Source of the DNA: Utricularia gibba
Taxonomy: Eukaryota; Streptophyta; Magnoliopsida; Lamiales; Lentibulariaceae
Length of the DNA stretch: 64,000 nucleotides
Direction of reading: 5' to 3'
NCBI GenBank assembly: GCA_002189035.1
Contig: NEEC01000002.1
Span: 1,922,001 to 1,986,000, forward strand
Shown: positions 2,072-55,313 of the stretch, in pieces
Layout of the letters: every line of letters starts with the position of its first letter
Position numbering within the stretch: the first letter of the stretch is position 1
Translations under genes and position numbers: made by a program
Notes under the pieces: model-generated
Told to the model about the DNA's origin: nothing
Database searches by the model: none
The model's input: the letters and a program-made list of their open reading frames with translations, nothing else

Positions 2072-5000
2072 TCAGTTCGACTGTTGCTTCAAGAAGGGCT
2101 TTTGGCAGATGAGGAGCCTCTCATCACTGTTGTTCTCGATCTCGATGATGCGTGCATCCCACTTCAGGTGGGTCGCCAGGGACCGTGCAAGCTCGATCAC
2201 ATGGGTGATGTCTTTCAGAACCACCCATCCCTGAGGTGCATGTACCATCAGCTCGACAGCATGAAAGGGGAAGGCAAACCCGAAAATAATACCTCTGGGC
2301 GAAGAATGCGGTCTATCTCAATGAACAAATCCATCATTTGGCATCTTGGCTTCTCACCAAATTCAAGAGACAGGAGCCCTTGAGCATGAATCAGATCATA
2401 GGTTCTTGGGTAAGTTGGAAATGGCTCACACCTGCAACACAGGGAACACTTGTATTCACTTTGATCCAGAGTAATTCAAGCAACACATTTCATACCAGTC
2501 ATGAAGGACTCCTAACAACCCCCGGTCCACTATCAATGGTAGTGTATTAGGACCCCGAGTAGGTACAACATTCATAACCCATATGGACTTGCCGGTTTGT
2601 AACAAGGCAGCATTGAACCCACCAAGATGAGCATTCATATCCAAAACATTCCTGAGCATGTTATAAGGTGGAGAAGGGTCCTCATCTCCGGGTCTTTTAG
2701 GGTGATCAGAAAATATAACAGGTGATAACAGAGACCAATAGTTGACAACAGCAGCATTCCAGTTGAGACTATCTTCAGTGAACTCTTCCGGAGACAAACC
2801 TATAAACATAAATAATAAATGAGTTGTGTTCGACGGTTGCAGAAAAACAGTATCTTAATTCTGTATAAATGTACATGGAACAAACTTCAAAAAGTAAGAA
2901 GCCAAAAGCTTGTAGGAGTAGAGAATATGAACCATGAATTCCAAGTTCAGCAGAGTTGAGCTGTGCTTGAGTCGGCCACTTTCTCCGTACATCAATAGGA
3001 ACCCATCGTCGGCTATGAGTTCCTCCAATGCAGGGTTGGAGGTTGCGATAGTATGGGGACTCAACATCGTTGTCCTTGCTACAGAGAGAGGGAGAGGAAC
3101 TTTTCCTAGAAGCAAAACAATTGGCAATTTCAGAAGGTTGAAGTGCTCAAGGCTTCGGCCATTGTCCGATTACACAGTATTAAAGTGAATTCACATATTC
3201 TGTTAACTGTGCAAAATCAATTGCCTGGATAACCCAAAAAAAAACGGCAGTCTTGTTTAGAAGCCAGTAAAAGCAGTATTACCCATACCTAGTGGCGTAG
3301 CAGTTAATCTTAGTAGTCTTCTTCCAAACAACAGTTTCATCTTGTTGAGGCAACATCTCCCAGCACAGACTTTCTGTAAGCAACTTTACAGCATTCCATT
3401 TCTTAAGGTTATCTTTTTTACGAAGGGTACGTTGAGAATTTACAAGAGCATCCGTCCAGACAAAATATCCACCAGGCCGCAACAGTCTATCAACTTCAAC
3501 CAGATATAGACCACCTGTTAAGCATGAAACAGAACAAGAAGATTTTCAGCAAATGCCTAGAATGTAACATATCAGACTCCTATAGATGCTATTTTATGAA
3601 ATGATAACCTAAGGATCAAGAATACCTTTTTTATCCCAGTCAACATGACATCTCGCACAGTGTACCATATCAAATGAAAAAGATGGATACGGCAGCTGCT
3701 TTGTTTTGAATGAACCAATCATAGCAGGAACGCCTCTTTCAAGTGTTAACTGAACTTGACTGCCTGATGCTTCATAGTTTGCTAGGCACATGGTGAGTAG
3801 TTGATGCGAAGATAGATGAGCACCAAAACTACCATAACCACACTCTATGTCTAAGATGGTTCTAATCTGAGACAAAAAAAAAAGGAAGAACTCAGCAACG
3901 AACCATTGGTAAGTAGTCGTATCTTGATAAGAATCAGTTATATTCGGAAGAAACTTCATGCACCAATTATGAAGGTCATTTCATACAAAAGTATAGTGCT
4001 CTGGAACTTTCTGAAATCATTGATGAATTGATGAAAGGGCAAGATTAAAAGCAAAGTTACCCCAGCTACGGGTAAAAGGCAGAAAAACTAGCGTGTAATT
4101 AAAAACTAAGTGAGAAACAGAATATAGGTCATTTTTCCACTCACCCCAGCTTGTGTAAAGTAAGATGCATTTCTTTCACCAATAATTTGAGCAATTTGAT
4201 GGGAGTAGTCTTCGACATCAAAGTATGATGCAGAATAAAAAGAAACCTGATCTGCATCCAACCTCATCATTCTGCAATTATGGGAAATAAAAGTAAGCAT
4301 GGAGACAAGCGGTGGCATTAAGCGCCTTGTAAACAATTGTAAAGTTTTTCTTTGCACCTTTTGAATAAACTTCCAGAGGAGAGCACCTCCTGTGCAGTAA
4401 TTTTAACATTATCTAACCAAATCACATCCCTCCCAGTTGGCCATCGAAGAGGAATTCTATAATTGGCAGGAGGAAGTACCAAGCAATTTTGCTTAGGGGC
4501 ATGCTCACAATGCCGATCATATTCTTTACCATCAGAAAATCCATGATCAAGATTTTCTGAAATGTTGAAGCAAGGAACATAGTTTTCATACTCCTCCAAG
4601 CAATAGCCTAATTCTCTTGACCTTGAAAAACCAAGAGAAAGCTCCCCAATTTCATAAAGATCTGAAACCAGAAGCTCTTGAAGTCGCCTATAGCCACGAA
4701 AGACTTTGCCTCTCGAGGCAGAGGTTATGGACAGGGTCCACCAGAAGGAACCAATAAGAGCAACAACAACAATTACTGCTAAAGTATACCTCAGCAACGA
4801 AAAAATTATTCTTTGCCGACTCCTCATAAGCCCTGTGCTAGAGGGATCAGACATAAAACTATTTTCCTTCAGACTGTGTTTTGTACATAAACTACCGTAA
4901 AAAGATATCCAAAGGGAAGCTTTACAGATGAATGCATATCATCAGCATCATTTTTTCGAATTCGCTCCACACATTCTTTATCAACCCTTTCCTTCTTCTG

Positions 5001-7678: not shown

Positions 7679-8481
7679 TGATTTAGTCACACAAACTATA
7701 CCCTTAATCTTATAGAGCTAACTTATTGAATTTGCTCAAGAAAACTCTCATTAACCGATCTCCATCCACAACCCATGTGATTTTCTTAGGATACTTCCGT
7801 CCTTGGGCGAGGCATCACACACCGGGTCCTATTTCCATCTCCGCCTCTCGTGACCGGACAACACGATCACATGCAGAAAGGAGGAGGCGCGGGTTACCTG
7901 GATCGGGCATGCCACGTGCCACATTAATTGCATGCTTCAACCGCTGAAAGGGAACAAACCCTCCTGCATCCGCTCGCCTCGCCACAACACCGGCTGAGTG
8001 AGTGTCTTCTCTCTGCAAGAATCACCGCCAGTTGCGGAACTCGGAGTACTTTTTTAAGGGGGGCCGCATACTGGGGTTGAATAAAATAGAAGATTCAATT
8101 GAAAATTTAACTCTTCATTTTTTTATAGGCGAACCAAGATTCAGTTTGACCAACCCTAAGTTCCGTCCCTAGTTACCACCAAAAGAAATAATATTCCATT
8201 TGTGACATGTGTGAGACATCCACCGGGTTCGGCTACTTCAAGTCGTGGCTCAAGTTACTACACGGTAATCTAAGACGGTTGTGGTTGGAGGCTTTTTTGT
8301 ATGTTCCTCATTCTAATACTGGTTGATAAATCATGTTAATATACTAAGAAAAAGGTTCTAAATCTTTCAAAGAAATTAGCAATTTGCCTGCTGCAAATCG
8401 ACCGAATGAATCCGGGATTTAGGAGTAGTTCATTTCAGATTTTGATGAGTTTGAGAGTAAAGAATAGGGTCGGAAAACAGT

Positions 8482-8572
8482 GGGGCATCAGATCTCCAAG
8501 GTGTTTTCAGCATCAACCATGTGCTTCAGACGCAAATTACCCATTGTTAACATTAGATTCATCCTCTGCCCC
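8482..8572 (-). ncRNA. C/D-box snoRNA guiding 18S 2'-O-methylation in the CGCAAAUUACCC segment
   Basis: Third and last unit of the cluster. The ends pair as GGGGCA with TGCCCC. The C box is AGGATGA (minus strand, 8559-8565, one change from RUGAUGA), the D box CTGA (8488-8491), the internal D' box CTGA (8526-8529), with a C'-like TTGATGC near 8512. The guide next to D' is complementary to about 13 bases of the invariant 18S segment CGCAAAUUACCCA. The base paired five nucleotides from D' is the first A of CGCAAAU, equivalent, as I recall, to yeast 18S Am420 (snR52). The guide next to D (complement of ATCTCCAAGGTG) has a target I cannot place. About 91 nt, normal for the class. Confidence 0.8.
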
Positions 8573-8632
8573 AAAAACCATCGCAATTTGTCACAAAATT
8601 TTCCAAAAGCAAGCACTAGAATGCTTAGGTAA

Positions 8633-8721
8633 GGGCGATCAGAACCTGTCGAGATTCATCGTAAACATCACAATCAATCAGTGGATTGACAGACCTGATG
8701 AAAGTCATCGTCACCTCGCCC
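8633..8721 (-). ncRNA. C/D-box snoRNA, U33/snR55-like, guiding 18S Um in GGAUUGACAG
   Basis: Middle unit of the cluster. The ends pair as GGGCGA with TCGCCC. The C box is within TGACGATGA (8705-8712), the D box CTGA (8639-8642), the internal D' box CTGA (8678-8681), followed by a C'-like GTGATGT. The guide next to D' is complementary to GGAUUGACAGAC of 18S rRNA, with a final G-U pair. The fifth-nucleotide rule points to the first U of GGAUUG, which I recall as yeast Um1269 (snR55) and human Um1326 (U33). The second guide, complementary to AACCTGTCGAGATTC, has no target I can place. About 89 nt. Confidence 0.82.
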
Positions 8722-8812
8722 ACTGATAAGAAAAAAAATGAATAGAAGCAAAGTAAATAACTAAACTCGATTCAAAAGAAAACAAATCGGAGAAATTCAT
8801 CCAAAACCAAAG

Positions 8813-8892
8813 TGCTCAGAACTTCTTAGAGGTATTTAGCGCCATCATCGGCGGTAGCGCCTCCGGCACGTTAATCTGAGATCATCATAGCA
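8813..8892 (-). ncRNA. C/D-box snoRNA with guide to 18S CUUCUUAGAGG
   Basis: First unit of the cluster, nearest the promoter. The C box ATGATGA (8882-8888) is a perfect RUGAUGA. The D box is CTGA (8816-8819), and the ends pair through TGCT/AGCA. The guide next to D is complementary to 11-13 bases of the conserved 18S segment CUUCUUAGAGG; the fifth-nucleotide rule points to the second U of CUUC. A C'-like CGATGATG lies near 8848, but no clear D' box was found. About 80 nt. Read as protein it gives only a 37-residue ORF of no known family. Confidence 0.75.
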
Positions 8893-8975
8893 GTATGTTG
8901 AGAAAAAAAAAAAACAAACAAACAAACAAATGCAGCAACCACGCTCCGCCAGTTCCACATGAAACGAATCCCCAA

Positions 8976-8996: not shown

Positions 8997-9120
8997 AAAC
9001 CCTAATCGAAAAACCATACAATTTGGACCGCCCTTTTAAAATTTATAGAATGCGGCCCATTTACAGTGGGCATGACGTATTAGTTTCGGCCCATTTATAG
9101 TGGGTCCAGCCGATGGGCCC
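8997..9120. promoter_or_regulatory. Telo-box and Site II elements between the snoRNA cluster and JMJ21
   Basis: A telo-box AAACCCTAA lies at 8997-9005, and GGCCCA/TGGGCC Site II motifs (TCP-binding) lie near 9054, 9088 and 9114. Two of the Site II motifs sit in a near-duplicate CGGCCCATTTA(C/T)AGTGGG unit. Telo-box plus Site II is the known promoter signature of plant snoRNA and ribosomal-protein genes. The block lies between the minus-strand snoRNA genes and the plus-strand JMJ21 gene, so it may serve both. Confidence 0.6.
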
Positions 9121-9377
9121 ACGCAGCCTCTTCAATTATCTATATTAAAAATGAACATACGATTTCCTTTATTGGGGAATGACTTAACAAGCACGATCTT
9201 GTGTAATGAAAGCCGAAGGAAGCCGGCGGGCGTTTACCGGTTTCTTGCTTTGGCGCGTCATCTCAGAGGGCATGGAATATCCGCCATTGCTGAAATTCTA
9301 CGCGTAGTTGGTCGCCTTTTTACAGATAACAATTACGAAATTCCATTTCCGCTTCACTCCAGGTTCACCGACTTACC

Positions 9378-12300
9378 ATGGACTCCGCTACGCAATATCC
9401 CTCTCCACCGGAAAACTACCGTAGGACGGCGGCGCTTGGCCATGCCCACGTTATTCCAGATGAAATCTTGTGTACGATATTGGCTAAACTCGCACCTCGC
9501 GATGTCGCTCGTCTATCTTGTGTCAGCAGGTCCCTTTCTTGATTGCCTATTGGAAATGAAATTGACTCAAATCCCTTTCCGTTAGTGATTGTTCTTTTTA
9601 TTTTCTGCGTGTAGCGTGATGTATGTGCTATGCAACGAGGAACCACTATGGATGAGTTTGTGCCTAAGCATCATCAATCGTCCCCTGGAGTATATGGGGT
9701 CGTGGAAAAGGACAACCTTGCATCAGTATGGTTGCTTTAGTTAGATTATTCTGATCATGTTCTGTTGGCTTGATTCGTTAAACCTTCGAAAGATCCTAGC
9801 CTACTTATTCATTAAATTTCTTGGATTCCAGACTAGGCTTTCTAGAGAAATATGATGAGACGCACAAAAGGACTTTATACTTTGAAGGTATTGAATTTCG
9901 TCTTCAAGATTCTTCGTCTTCTGAATTTTAGTCGAGGATCACTTTCTTACCAATGTCATGCAGGGTTTAGTTCATTATTTCTCTATAGGAGGTTATACCG
10001 ATGTCATACATCATTGAGTGGGTTTTCATTTGACGATGGAAATGTTAGGAGAAGGGACAGGCTTTCGGTTGAAGAGTTTGACAACGAATATGATGGTAAA
10101 TGCCCGGTAAGCCATTGAAATCAATTGCGCAAGTCTATTTTTCTTTTACGTCATCGTTGTAGATACCTCAAGTAATTCATATACTCTTATCATTGCCTAT
10201 ATTTATTGGATTGTGATTTTTATTTTTCTCACCTTCAATGATCAAGCATGCCTGTTGATCAAGCTATTATAATTTATAACACTACATATAACCTCAAGTA
10301 ATTCATATACTCTTATCATTGCCTACATTTATGGATTGTGATTTTTGTTTTTCTCACCTTCAATGATCAAGCATGCCTGGTGATCAAGCTATTATAATTT
10401 ATAACACTACGTATTCTTTTACAGGTTTTGATAAACGGATTGGCTGACAGCTGGGCTGCTAGTAAAACATGGACCTGTAAACAACTTTTACTCAAGTATC
10501 CAGAAACAAAATTCCGGATCTCACAAAGGAGTCCAAAGAAGTTAAACATGAAGTTCAAGGACTATGTACACTACATGCAAGTACAACGTGATGAAGATCC
10601 TTTGTACATATTTGATGACAAGGTGTGATTACCTGTTTTAATTTCATGTTGAAGGTTCAATCTTTTAGGCTTACGATCTTTCTGATAATGTAGTTTGGGG
10701 AATCTGCACCAGACTTGCTGAAGGATTACGCCGTTCCCAATTTATTTCAAGAAGATTATTTCAATGTACTGGACATAGATCAACGGCCTCCTTTTAGATG
10801 GCTTATAATTGGCCCAGAAAGATCTGGGGCATCGTGGCATGTGGATCCAGGCTTGACAAGTGCATGGAATACTCTTCTCTGTGGTCGCAAGCGGTAAGAT
10901 TAGATTTAAATATTAATTGTTGGCTTTAGGGCAACCAACATGTTAAATGTTAAATTGCACTGTTGTTGATAGAGGTTTATTTGGAAGTTGGGTCTTTCAA
11001 GATCATGGTTTTAATGTACGAGAGGAGAAAAGTTTTAATTTGTCAATTTGGACCACAAAGTATTAGTCAAAATTGTATCACTTATTTTGGATACAAATTT
11101 TCCCTACAAACTCATGTTTTTTTTTCATACCATCCTAAAGTTCTTCATAATGATGCTTTAAAAAAAGTCCGTCATAATACTATCCCTCAGTTGCACACTC
11201 TCAGTTTCTTAACATATAGCATCATTTCTTGGACAGATGGGCATTGTATCCCCAGGACGTGTTCCTCTAGGTGTGACAGTACATGTTAATGAAGATGACG
11301 GTGATGTTGATATTGAAACCCCATCATCGCTGCAGGTACTTAGTTGCACATAGCCATTTGCAATAACTGAAAAGAGTTCTTGGATTTCATGTCCTCTAAC
11401 CTCCAATTATGTTTTTCCTACATTCATTTTCTAGTGGTGGCTGGATTTTTATCCACTTCTTTCTGAAAGGGATAAGCCTATCGAGTGCACCCAACTTCCA
11501 GGCGAGACAATATATGTTCCAAGTGGATGGTGGCACTGTGTATTAAATTTGGAGACAAGCATAGCTGTGACACAAAATTATGTTAATTCGAGAAACTTTG
11601 AATTTGTATGTTTAGACATGGCTCCAGGGTATCAACATAAAGGCATATCCCGTGCTGGGCTCCTTGCTCTTGATGGAGACCTAAAAATTTCTGAAAATAC
11701 TACGGTATGTGCCTCAAGACTCCCTGCAAGGGAAAATAGGGTAACAATACACAGGTCTCCGGAGGATATGACCCAAGCCAACAACAACACAGTGGGTTTG
11801 GAATATTCTTATGATATAAACTTCCTTGCTATGTTTCTTGATAAAGAAAGAGATCATTACACATTTCCATGGAGCCCCGGTAACTGCATAGGACAACGTG
11901 AAATGCGGGACTGGTTATCTAAACTTTGGGTGAGAAGACCTGAACTTAAGGATCTTGTGTGGAAGGTATCTCATCACTTCCCCTGATTCACCTGTGTTGG
12001 ATGCTTTGGTATTTCACAGAAACACTATTTCCTATTAGTTTTATAGCATGAAATGGAATATTGTCTGATCTTATTAAATGAATCCTGATTTGATTTGCTA
12101 TAACTTAAATTTATTTTCATGTGGCATTGCATGCATACTTCATAGTTGATTTCAATTTCTTCACATTTAACTTTAGGGAGCATGTCTTGCCCTCAATGTT
12201 GAAAAATGGTGTGAAATTGCTGGAGAAATTTGTTCTTTTCATGGCCTCTCCTATCCTCTGGATGATGAGAAACTTCCGGTTGGCACTGGCAGCAATCCTG

Positions 12301-22313: not shown

Positions 22314-23244
22314 TTAGTGGGGGGATATGTTGACGAGTGTGATAAAAGAGTGAGCAGCACACACACAGATACACACACTCGCACACAGCGTCACAGAAAT
22401 GAAATTATGTAATTTGAATTTCAAACTCATTTTGGTTTTGGGTTCTTGATAGCTCAATTCATGATATGTCAATTATGCGCGTGCATTAGCGGTGCAGTTG
22501 GTTTGTTAATTAATTTAGGGTTGTCCGAATGCAAGCACAAAATTATCATTGGAATCTACAAATTCTAGGCATCAATTTTCAATAATACTGATAGATGGAA
22601 TATCTAATTCCACACGGAAGTGAATTGGTCAGAGTCTGATACAATAATTAATGTTGACAGCAACCACACAATGTGCAAATTAAAACTGCTAATAAGCCCA
22701 AATGTGGTCAGTGTCTAATACATTAACTAAAGAAAGGACAATTGTATAATACATGATAGAGGTTTCTCTAAATTCTATAAATATTCTTCGATGCACATTT
22801 TTGATACTAGAATTGGCAGGGGCCGCGCGAACGCAGGCCCCCTCTACCACAAATTATGACGTAGGCTCGACCCATTGGGCCGACCTTAAGCGGGCGCCCC
22901 TCCTAAGTGCAATGGAGGTCGCCAACTTAGGCCATAGGCCGGCTTGATCGCCCATCGACCCCGTCCAGGTAAGTATGGAGCTTGGTGCCACCCCGTATGT
23001 TTTTATACCCAACACCTCGCCCAAATCTGTTCTCTTTCCCGATGTGGGTGTAGAACACCCCGCTAAGAGGGTGGTTTTAAACCACTAGTTCACCGCATCT
23101 GTGTCCTTACAGCAGCTAGAGATTGGACTTTGGAGTTTCGTTTTGCTGTTGTTGTTTTTGGAGGATACGCATTTCTTGCTACTCCGTTTAAGGGCCACAC
23201 GAACAGGGGAAAGTTCGTTCTTTTGCGACAGTCGGATATTTAGC
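22314..23244. other. Spacer between pectin acetylesterase and GSTZ
   Basis: A CA-rich tract (about 22353-22388), AT-rich DNA, then a GC-rich island (about 22820-23050) of unknown origin, possibly an old repeat fragment. No supported gene. Confidence 0.5.
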
Positions 23245-25056: not shown

Positions 25057-26400
<1,344 letters not shown>

Positions 26401-26442
26401 TGCTCTCTTCTCCCAGGAACGATGACTGCGATCTGCTACAAG

Positions 26443-26451
26443 AAACCCTAG
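26443..26451. promoter_or_regulatory. Telo-box in the eL8 promoter
   Basis: AAACCCTAG on the plus strand, just upstream of the minus-strand eL8 start. GGGCT/AGCCC motifs resembling Site II follow between 26480 and 26585. This pair of elements is typical of plant translation-machinery genes. Confidence 0.6.
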
Positions 26452-27171
26452 TTGCGACATGTACAAGCTAATATACCGGCCAGGTATTGGGCTTTTACCC
26501 TCAAGCGTTGCTTAGCTCAGCCCTACAAATTTGGGCTTAGATACTCTTGGGCTTTTTTACATATCCAATACGCGGAAGCCCATGATTTGATTTCAAATAA
26601 AAAATAAGATGAAATTTGATTTAATTGATATTTATAAATAAAATGTGTCATTTGAGTATTATACTAAAAAATATGAAAAATAAATGATTCATCATAATAT
26701 TACAAAGAAGAGAAATCACCAAAATTTATCTTTATGATAATTTTAATCCTTGATAAATAATACATTATAAATTTCAATCTGCATATTAAATCAAATATTT
26801 CATTTACAATTCTCTCAAATCCCTACGACTATCTCATACCAAACACGTGCTGAAAGTCTATGAAAGTACAAAGAAGGGGCAAGACATGACATGCTTGTTT
26901 GTATTCTGGTTTACTGATGGCTTGCCATAAAAAAAAAAATATCCAATTTGTGGTATAATCTGATCATATTAAAACAACACAGGAGTGAAACATGAATTAT
27001 ACAATAAAAATCTCTCGTATCCAGTACCCAAAACTCTAAACCCTAAACCCTGAAACTGATCTGCTCACAATTGAAACCTTTTGAAGAAGAACTCAAAGTC
27101 CTCTGAATACTTGCTCAGCTAGCTGCTGTTCTGGTGTATGATGGGATGTTTCCCCCCATTGAGATGGTCTC
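26452..27171. other. Spacer between eL8 and NOL9
   Basis: The eL8 promoter occupies the first 150 bases; then AT-rich DNA without ORFs to about 26830, and the NOL9 3' flank from about 27060. No additional gene seen. Confidence 0.6.
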
Positions 27172-54194: not shown

Positions 54195-54204
54195 TTTAGG
54201 GTTT
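54195..54204 (-). promoter_or_regulatory. Telo-box upstream of the UPF0390 gene
   Basis: AAACCCTAAA on the gene's own strand, about 28 bases before the start codon, typical of plant genes for ribosome production. Confidence 0.6.
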
Positions 54205-55313
54205 ATCGCACAGCTGGAATAGTCCGTCCACGGCCGAGTAGGGTTCACAGAAAACGTAACCGGGTCATACTTTCCATTTTCCAACCGGTGACCCGCGGGT
54301 CGGTGGCACGAATATCTAAATGGGCCACTAACCTCAGACACCGGCCCAAAATCTACAAATGTTAGTAGTCCCCACTGTTGGGCTCAATAACAAGCCCAAT
54401 TTGATGGCCCATAATACAGCAATAAGATGGAACTTCCATATGAAAAGCAAGAGGATGATAGATCTGGGTCTGTATTTAAATAAACATGTATCATATGGTT
54501 AAAATTAAAAATATATCATATGTAAACATTTTATAAATTTCTACTTAAAATGATATTATGTTTGATAAATATATTTAAAATAAAAAACAAATCCATTTCG
54601 TTTCGAAAAATCATGTAACATGAAAATTTTACAAAACATAGTTGAAAGGCACTGGCCTAACCAGGAGTCAGTATAAGAGGTACCATTTGCATTGTTATAT
54701 TAATATTTTTTTTAATAAATTTTAACTACAAAATTTTATAATATATTTAGTAAATATTTTTAAATGATGATATTAGACACCATTCAAATACATATGGCTC
54801 CCTCTGATTGAAAAAATTATAGAACTATTGTATAACTTATACATATATCGAATAGTATATTTATTAAATAGATATAATTCTCAATAAACGCATGTTCGCA
54901 GTCAAAACAAATATGTAAAATACGGGATAAATATAATCTTTTTAAAATATTTTATTTTTTAAAAAATAATATTAATGTAAAATGTAAGTTTAATGGGTTC
55001 CAAAAGTATTTTGTTAATTAGGAAATTATATTAAAAATTCATTTCAATTAGGAATATTGAATGCGTTTATGGGAGAGAGAAAAGGGGAAGGGGGAAGAGG
55101 AAAGAGGGGCGGAGACCAAATCAATTTGCTTTGAAAAACCTAGCCGGGCGCTGCCCCCGCCTCCTTCCTCTCTCTCTGTCTTCCCTCCCCGAACACCCGA
55201 ATCAACTAATACAAATTTTAATTTTATTTGCTGCGAGCCCAAAATCCAGATACAGCCCTCTGGTTAAACTTCCATTAAAAAAAAATTCAATTTTTTTCCC
55301 CTCTCGCGTCGGG
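54205..55313. other. AT-rich divergent spacer between UPF0390 and PHD genes
   Basis: Contains GGCCCA-type motifs near 54320-54410, AT-rich DNA at 54480-55040 and a CT/GA-rich leader for the PHD gene at 55060-55310. No other gene supported. Confidence 0.6.

Follow-up and report, generated by a model that had tools for sequence, protein, structure and literature searches.

The window analysed in this study, a 64-kb stretch (64,000 nucleotides) of the Utricularia gibba genome, carries three tandem box C/D snoRNA genes on the minus strand at positions 8480–8893. All of them belong to known families, as revealed by the Rfam covariance models: snoU61, snoR14, and the SnoR15-like snoZ101 (Table 1). 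A first-pass annotation had claimed three minus-strand C/D units in this region and had named an Rfam covariance search as a check; that search matched RF01170, RF01280, and RF00358 and, together with the stems and boxes, confirmed all three units.

Table 1. Features of the snoRNA cluster, its upstream region, and related copies (window coordinates unless stated otherwise)
Feature	Position	Strand	Basis
snoU61 box C/D snoRNA gene	8812..8893	-	RF01170, 51.7 bits, E 7.5e-11
snoU61 C box, ATGATGA	8888-8882	-	sequence
snoU61 D guide	8832-8820	-	13-bp duplex with 18S, U1384-equivalent
snoU61 D box, CTGA	8819-8816	-	sequence
snoR14 box C/D snoRNA gene	8635..8719	-	RF01280, 83.1 bits, E 6.2e-16
snoR14 C box, GTGACGA	8714-8708	-	sequence
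snoR14 D' guide	8695-8683	-	13-bp duplex with 18S, U1235-equivalent
snoR14 D' box, CTGA	8681-8678	-	sequence
snoR14 D guide, CUCGACAGG	8654-8644	-	fits 25S CC[U]GUCGGGA; weaker than the 18S assignments
snoR14 D box, CTGA	8642-8639	-	sequence
snoZ101 (SnoR15-like) box C/D snoRNA gene	8480..8574	-	RF00358, 75.1 bits, E 5.5e-13
snoZ101 terminal stem	8573-8567/8487-8481	-	7 bp, UGGGGCA/UGCCCCA
snoZ101 C box, AGGATGA	8565-8559	-	sequence
snoZ101 D' guide	8543-8530	-	14-bp duplex with 18S, A440-equivalent
snoZ101 D' box, CTGA	8529-8526	-	sequence
snoZ101 D guide, CACCUUGGAGA	8503-8493	-	fits 25S UCU[C]CAAGGUG; weaker than the 18S assignments
snoZ101 D box, CTGA	8491-8488	-	sequence
TATA box, TATAAA	8978..8983	-	sequence; 90 nt upstream of U61
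Telo-box, TAGGGTTT (reverse complement of AAACCCTA)	8997..9004	-	sequence; element defined in PMC4660826
Site II elements, TGGGCC	9054..9121 (starts 9059, 9093, 9121)	-	sequence
Site II element, other strand	9114-9119	+	sequence
Intronic Z101 copies, uS11/RPS14 paralogues	L004 1501-1591; L006 1501-1587 (outside the window)		

Family assignment, boxes, and closing stems

When all Rfam families were compared with the 64-kb window at gathering thresholds, snoR14 and snoZ101 were detected above their thresholds (40 and 44 bits, respectively), along with an unrelated U1 snRNA. snoU61 was recovered with permissive thresholds, its E-value being that of a 0.9-kb search; it scores approximately 3 bits under the RF01170 gathering score of 55. 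The middle part of this gene is diverged. In the guide and the D box, it agrees with the model consensus at every position. The matches run end to end in all three units, and no additional snoRNA was detected in the spacers by Rfam at permissive thresholds.

According to the first-pass annotation, each unit has a closing stem, C and D boxes, and a guide. All of these are present, but not all are perfect. D boxes of the CUGA type lie near the 3' ends, and the C boxes follow RUGAUGA or, in the case of snoR14, the consensus of its own family (GTGACGA), with the exception of snoZ101, whose AGGATGA contains one deviation from RTGATGA. RNA folding and inspection identified closing stems of 4 bp in snoU61 (UGCU/AGCA, one pair of which extends into the D box) and 6 bp in snoR14 (GGGCGA/UCGCCC), which, like the 7-bp stem of snoZ101, bring the C and D boxes together. 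The fold energies of the three units are unremarkable (z of -1.0 to -1.7). Since C/D snoRNAs contain little pairing, this is the expected outcome.

Guides and predicted target sites in rRNA

The 18S reference used for the guides, NZ_CP050525.1, is that of another eukaryote and not of the host itself, and the record lacks the 5' end. According to cmscan, the entire record is eukaryotic SSU rRNA (RF01960, 1657 bits). In the host assembly, no match to the 18S segment patterns or to RF00002 (5.8S) was found. A 13-base 18S pattern gave two matches in the genome and was discarded, being no commoner than its reversed control.

On this reference, the snoU61 D guide and the D' guides of snoR14 and snoZ101 form duplexes of 13, 13, and 14 bp, respectively, each including one G-U pair and separated by 0–1 nt from its D or D' box. 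The claim that the 18S guides are placed by the five-nucleotide rule is thus borne out on a genuine eukaryotic 18S rRNA: each duplex exceeds 10 bp upstream of its box, and the nucleotides paired to the fifth position are U1372 (U61), U1223 (snoR14), and A427 (Z101) in the numbering of NZ_CP050525.1. These positions are 12, 12, and 13 nt below U1384, U1235, and A440 of Arabidopsis 18S rRNA, a nearly constant offset on a reference that is truncated at the 5' end. The three Arabidopsis sites are methylated according to RiboMeth-seq and have been assigned to U61.1, SnoR14, and SnoR15/U16, respectively (PMC8053127 Table 1). When guides were shuffled, a comparable run (at least 11 bp with G-U pairs discounted) occurred anywhere in the reference 18S in just 5 of 900 cases, in agreement with the earlier statement that chance is an unlikely source of such guides. 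The accompanying statement that the guides abut CTGA boxes holds for U61 D, snoR14 D', and Z101 D'; snoU61 has no CTGA-type D' box, and its D guide is its sole guide.

Two further guides, which were overlooked in the first-pass annotation, precede the D boxes of snoR14 and snoZ101 and fit 25S rRNA. The 25S assignment is weaker than that for 18S. The target nucleotides in the 25S segments (Table 1) are U for the snoR14 D guide and C for the Z101 D guide, as U803 and C1860 require. 25S U803 has been assigned to SnoR14 and 25S C1860 to SnoR15/U55 (PMC8053127 Table 1).

A 25S reference was sought among plasmids and Escherichia coli genomes, and none was found there. The search for rRNA references yielded two incidental observations. 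Positions 1–1764 of NZ_CP050525.1, deposited as Acinetobacter baumannii plasmid pVB7036_2, are eukaryotic 18S rRNA, and the end of the record resembles an Illumina adapter (AGATCGGAAGAG); this record is a contaminant. In scans of IMG/VR for eukaryotic rRNA, nothing usable was found; contig IMGVR_UViG_3300019274_000101 has no more than a short eukaryotic LSU rRNA-like end (~100 nt, at about 3330–3430). This contig gave no Rfam match, and its LSU-like end suggests a chimeric assembly.

Promoter, neighbouring genes, and copies elsewhere in the genome

The Telo-box and the Site II elements lie upstream of the TATA box and within 500 nt of the snoRNA genes, the arrangement termed TeloSII. In Arabidopsis and rice, this set of elements marks polycistronic snoRNA genes and ribosomal protein genes (PMC4660826). 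Its neighbours are a methyltransferase gene on the minus strand to the left (Methyltransf_29 exons at 3609–4938) and a JmjC gene on the plus strand to the right (exon at 11435–11986). The location of the cluster outside any recognisable protein gene makes it most likely to be an independent Pol II gene. The earlier reading of a polycistronic Pol II C/D cluster is supported by the Rfam models, the register of the guides on 18S rRNA, and the Telo-box/Site II/TATA promoter.

Other genes and promoter elements were observed in the window. The U1 snRNA gene (22816–22976, minus strand; RF00003, 138.4 bits) is preceded by an upstream-element-like sequence, CACCCACATCG (23050–23040), and a TATA box (23007–23001), which are located ~32 nt apart, as in plant snRNA genes of the Pol II type. 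A gene for ribosomal protein eL8 (L7Ae family; ~25400–26600, minus strand) was identified by visual inspection of its exons; the N-terminal exon, when searched singly, gave no Pfam match. A separate Telo-box (26443) accompanies this gene, together with four Site II motifs, and no snoRNA was detected by Rfam in its introns or near its promoter at 26.4 kb. A third Telo-box and four Site II motifs occur within 200 nt at 54197–54393 and are likely to be the promoter of a ribosome-related gene.

In the 100-Mb assembly, at least one match was found for U61, for snoR14, and for the whole cluster as DNA, and at least three were found for Z101, including the cluster copy; all of these counts are lower bounds. 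The two other Z101 copies are located in introns of two RPS14 paralogues, just upstream of the uS11 exons (Pfam Ribosomal_S11). One of them (C414, positions 3202960–3203050) retains the boxes and the 25S guide, but its 18S guide is mismatched (AACTTGCAT for AATTTGCGT) and falls below the 18S threshold. In the other (C3), a 12-bp 18S run persists, but the C box and the CTGA boxes are gone. Among the Z101 copies found, only the cluster copy combines both guides with usable boxes, its C box having the one deviation.

This distribution can reasonably be read as a division of labour among Z101 copies or as migration between intron host and cluster; that snoRNAs can be mobile within genomes is an established theme (PMC3511168). 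We tentatively suggest, while leaning against it on balance, that the cluster copy supplies the 18S A440 and 25S guides, that one uS11 intron copy serves only 25S C1860, and that the other is dying. If this were true, a single snoRNA family would have undergone subfunctionalisation, with its roles divided between an intron host and a Pol II cluster.

Interpretation and comparison with known snoRNA clusters

We regard it as almost certain that the locus is a conserved angiosperm C/D cluster, U61-snoR14-Z101, which is transcribed by Pol II and guides 2'-O-methylation of 18S and 25S rRNAs. Pol II would transcribe the cluster from the Telo-box/Site II/TATA promoter as one precursor, which would be cut and trimmed into three snoRNAs of about 80–95 nt. 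Together with fibrillarin and the other usual C/D proteins, which would bind them, these RNAs would direct methylation of 18S rRNA at the equivalents of Arabidopsis U1384 (U61), U1235 (snoR14 D'), and A440 (Z101 D'), and probably of 25S rRNA at U803 (snoR14 D) and C1860 (Z101 D).

A decayed, pseudogene-like cluster that has kept its similarity but lost its expression could also account for the non-consensus C box of Z101 and for a U61 that is diverged in its middle part and scores under the gathering threshold. We consider this very improbable, because every closing stem, D box, guide, and promoter element is intact, and the C box of the intronic C414 copy is non-consensus at the same position. 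Furthermore, no second U61 or snoR14 is present among the genome matches listed, so that conserved sites would be without a guide if these genes were lost. The notion that the sequence resembles snoRNAs by chance draws on nothing other than the commonness of short boxes; with no unit having an E-value above 1e-10, it is already refuted by the covariance-model matches, and the rarity of comparable 18S runs among shuffled guides likewise leaves it a negligible probability.

The conserved angiosperm cluster favoured here is ordinary for a plant C/D snoRNA locus, in its families and targets as well as in its promoter. The importance suggested for it earlier is not supported, since the snoRNA families, their target sites, and the linkage of U61 with snoR14 have already been described (PMC5122169, PMC8053127), and only this genome's copy is new. 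A literature search found no paper on bladderwort snoRNAs. The value of the finding lies mainly in annotation, as it adds three genes whose guide RNAs correspond to conserved sites of rRNA methylation. In addition, U61 and snoR14 are apparently single-copy in this compact plant genome, and the cluster would be a clean knock-out target for studying the function of rRNA methylations, whose role can be obscured by duplicated snoRNA copies in other plants.

U61-snoR14 corresponds to rice cluster 49, which belongs to a set of ten clusters shared by rice with other plants; it is conserved between rice and Arabidopsis, where the counterpart is given as 'U61-U14.1-U56' (PMC5122169). U61 and snoR14 have also been among the candidate qPCR references in barley (PMC4368757). 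The U. gibba locus resembles the angiosperm U61-snoR14 cluster in that U61 adjoins snoR14 in an independent cluster, and may differ in its third gene, Z101, a SnoR15-like guide. Compared with Rfam snoZ101 and Arabidopsis SnoR15, the Z101 guides fit both SnoR15 sites (18S A440 by D' and 25S C1860 by D), whereas the C box is AGGATGA and not ATGATGA; Z101 may thus be equated with SnoR15 on the basis of target sites, not sequence comparison. Finally, the locus shares with the plant Telo-box/Site II polycistronic snoRNA genes (PMC4660826) the immediately upstream combination of a TATA box with a Telo-box and multiple Site II elements, and differs from them in nothing notable.
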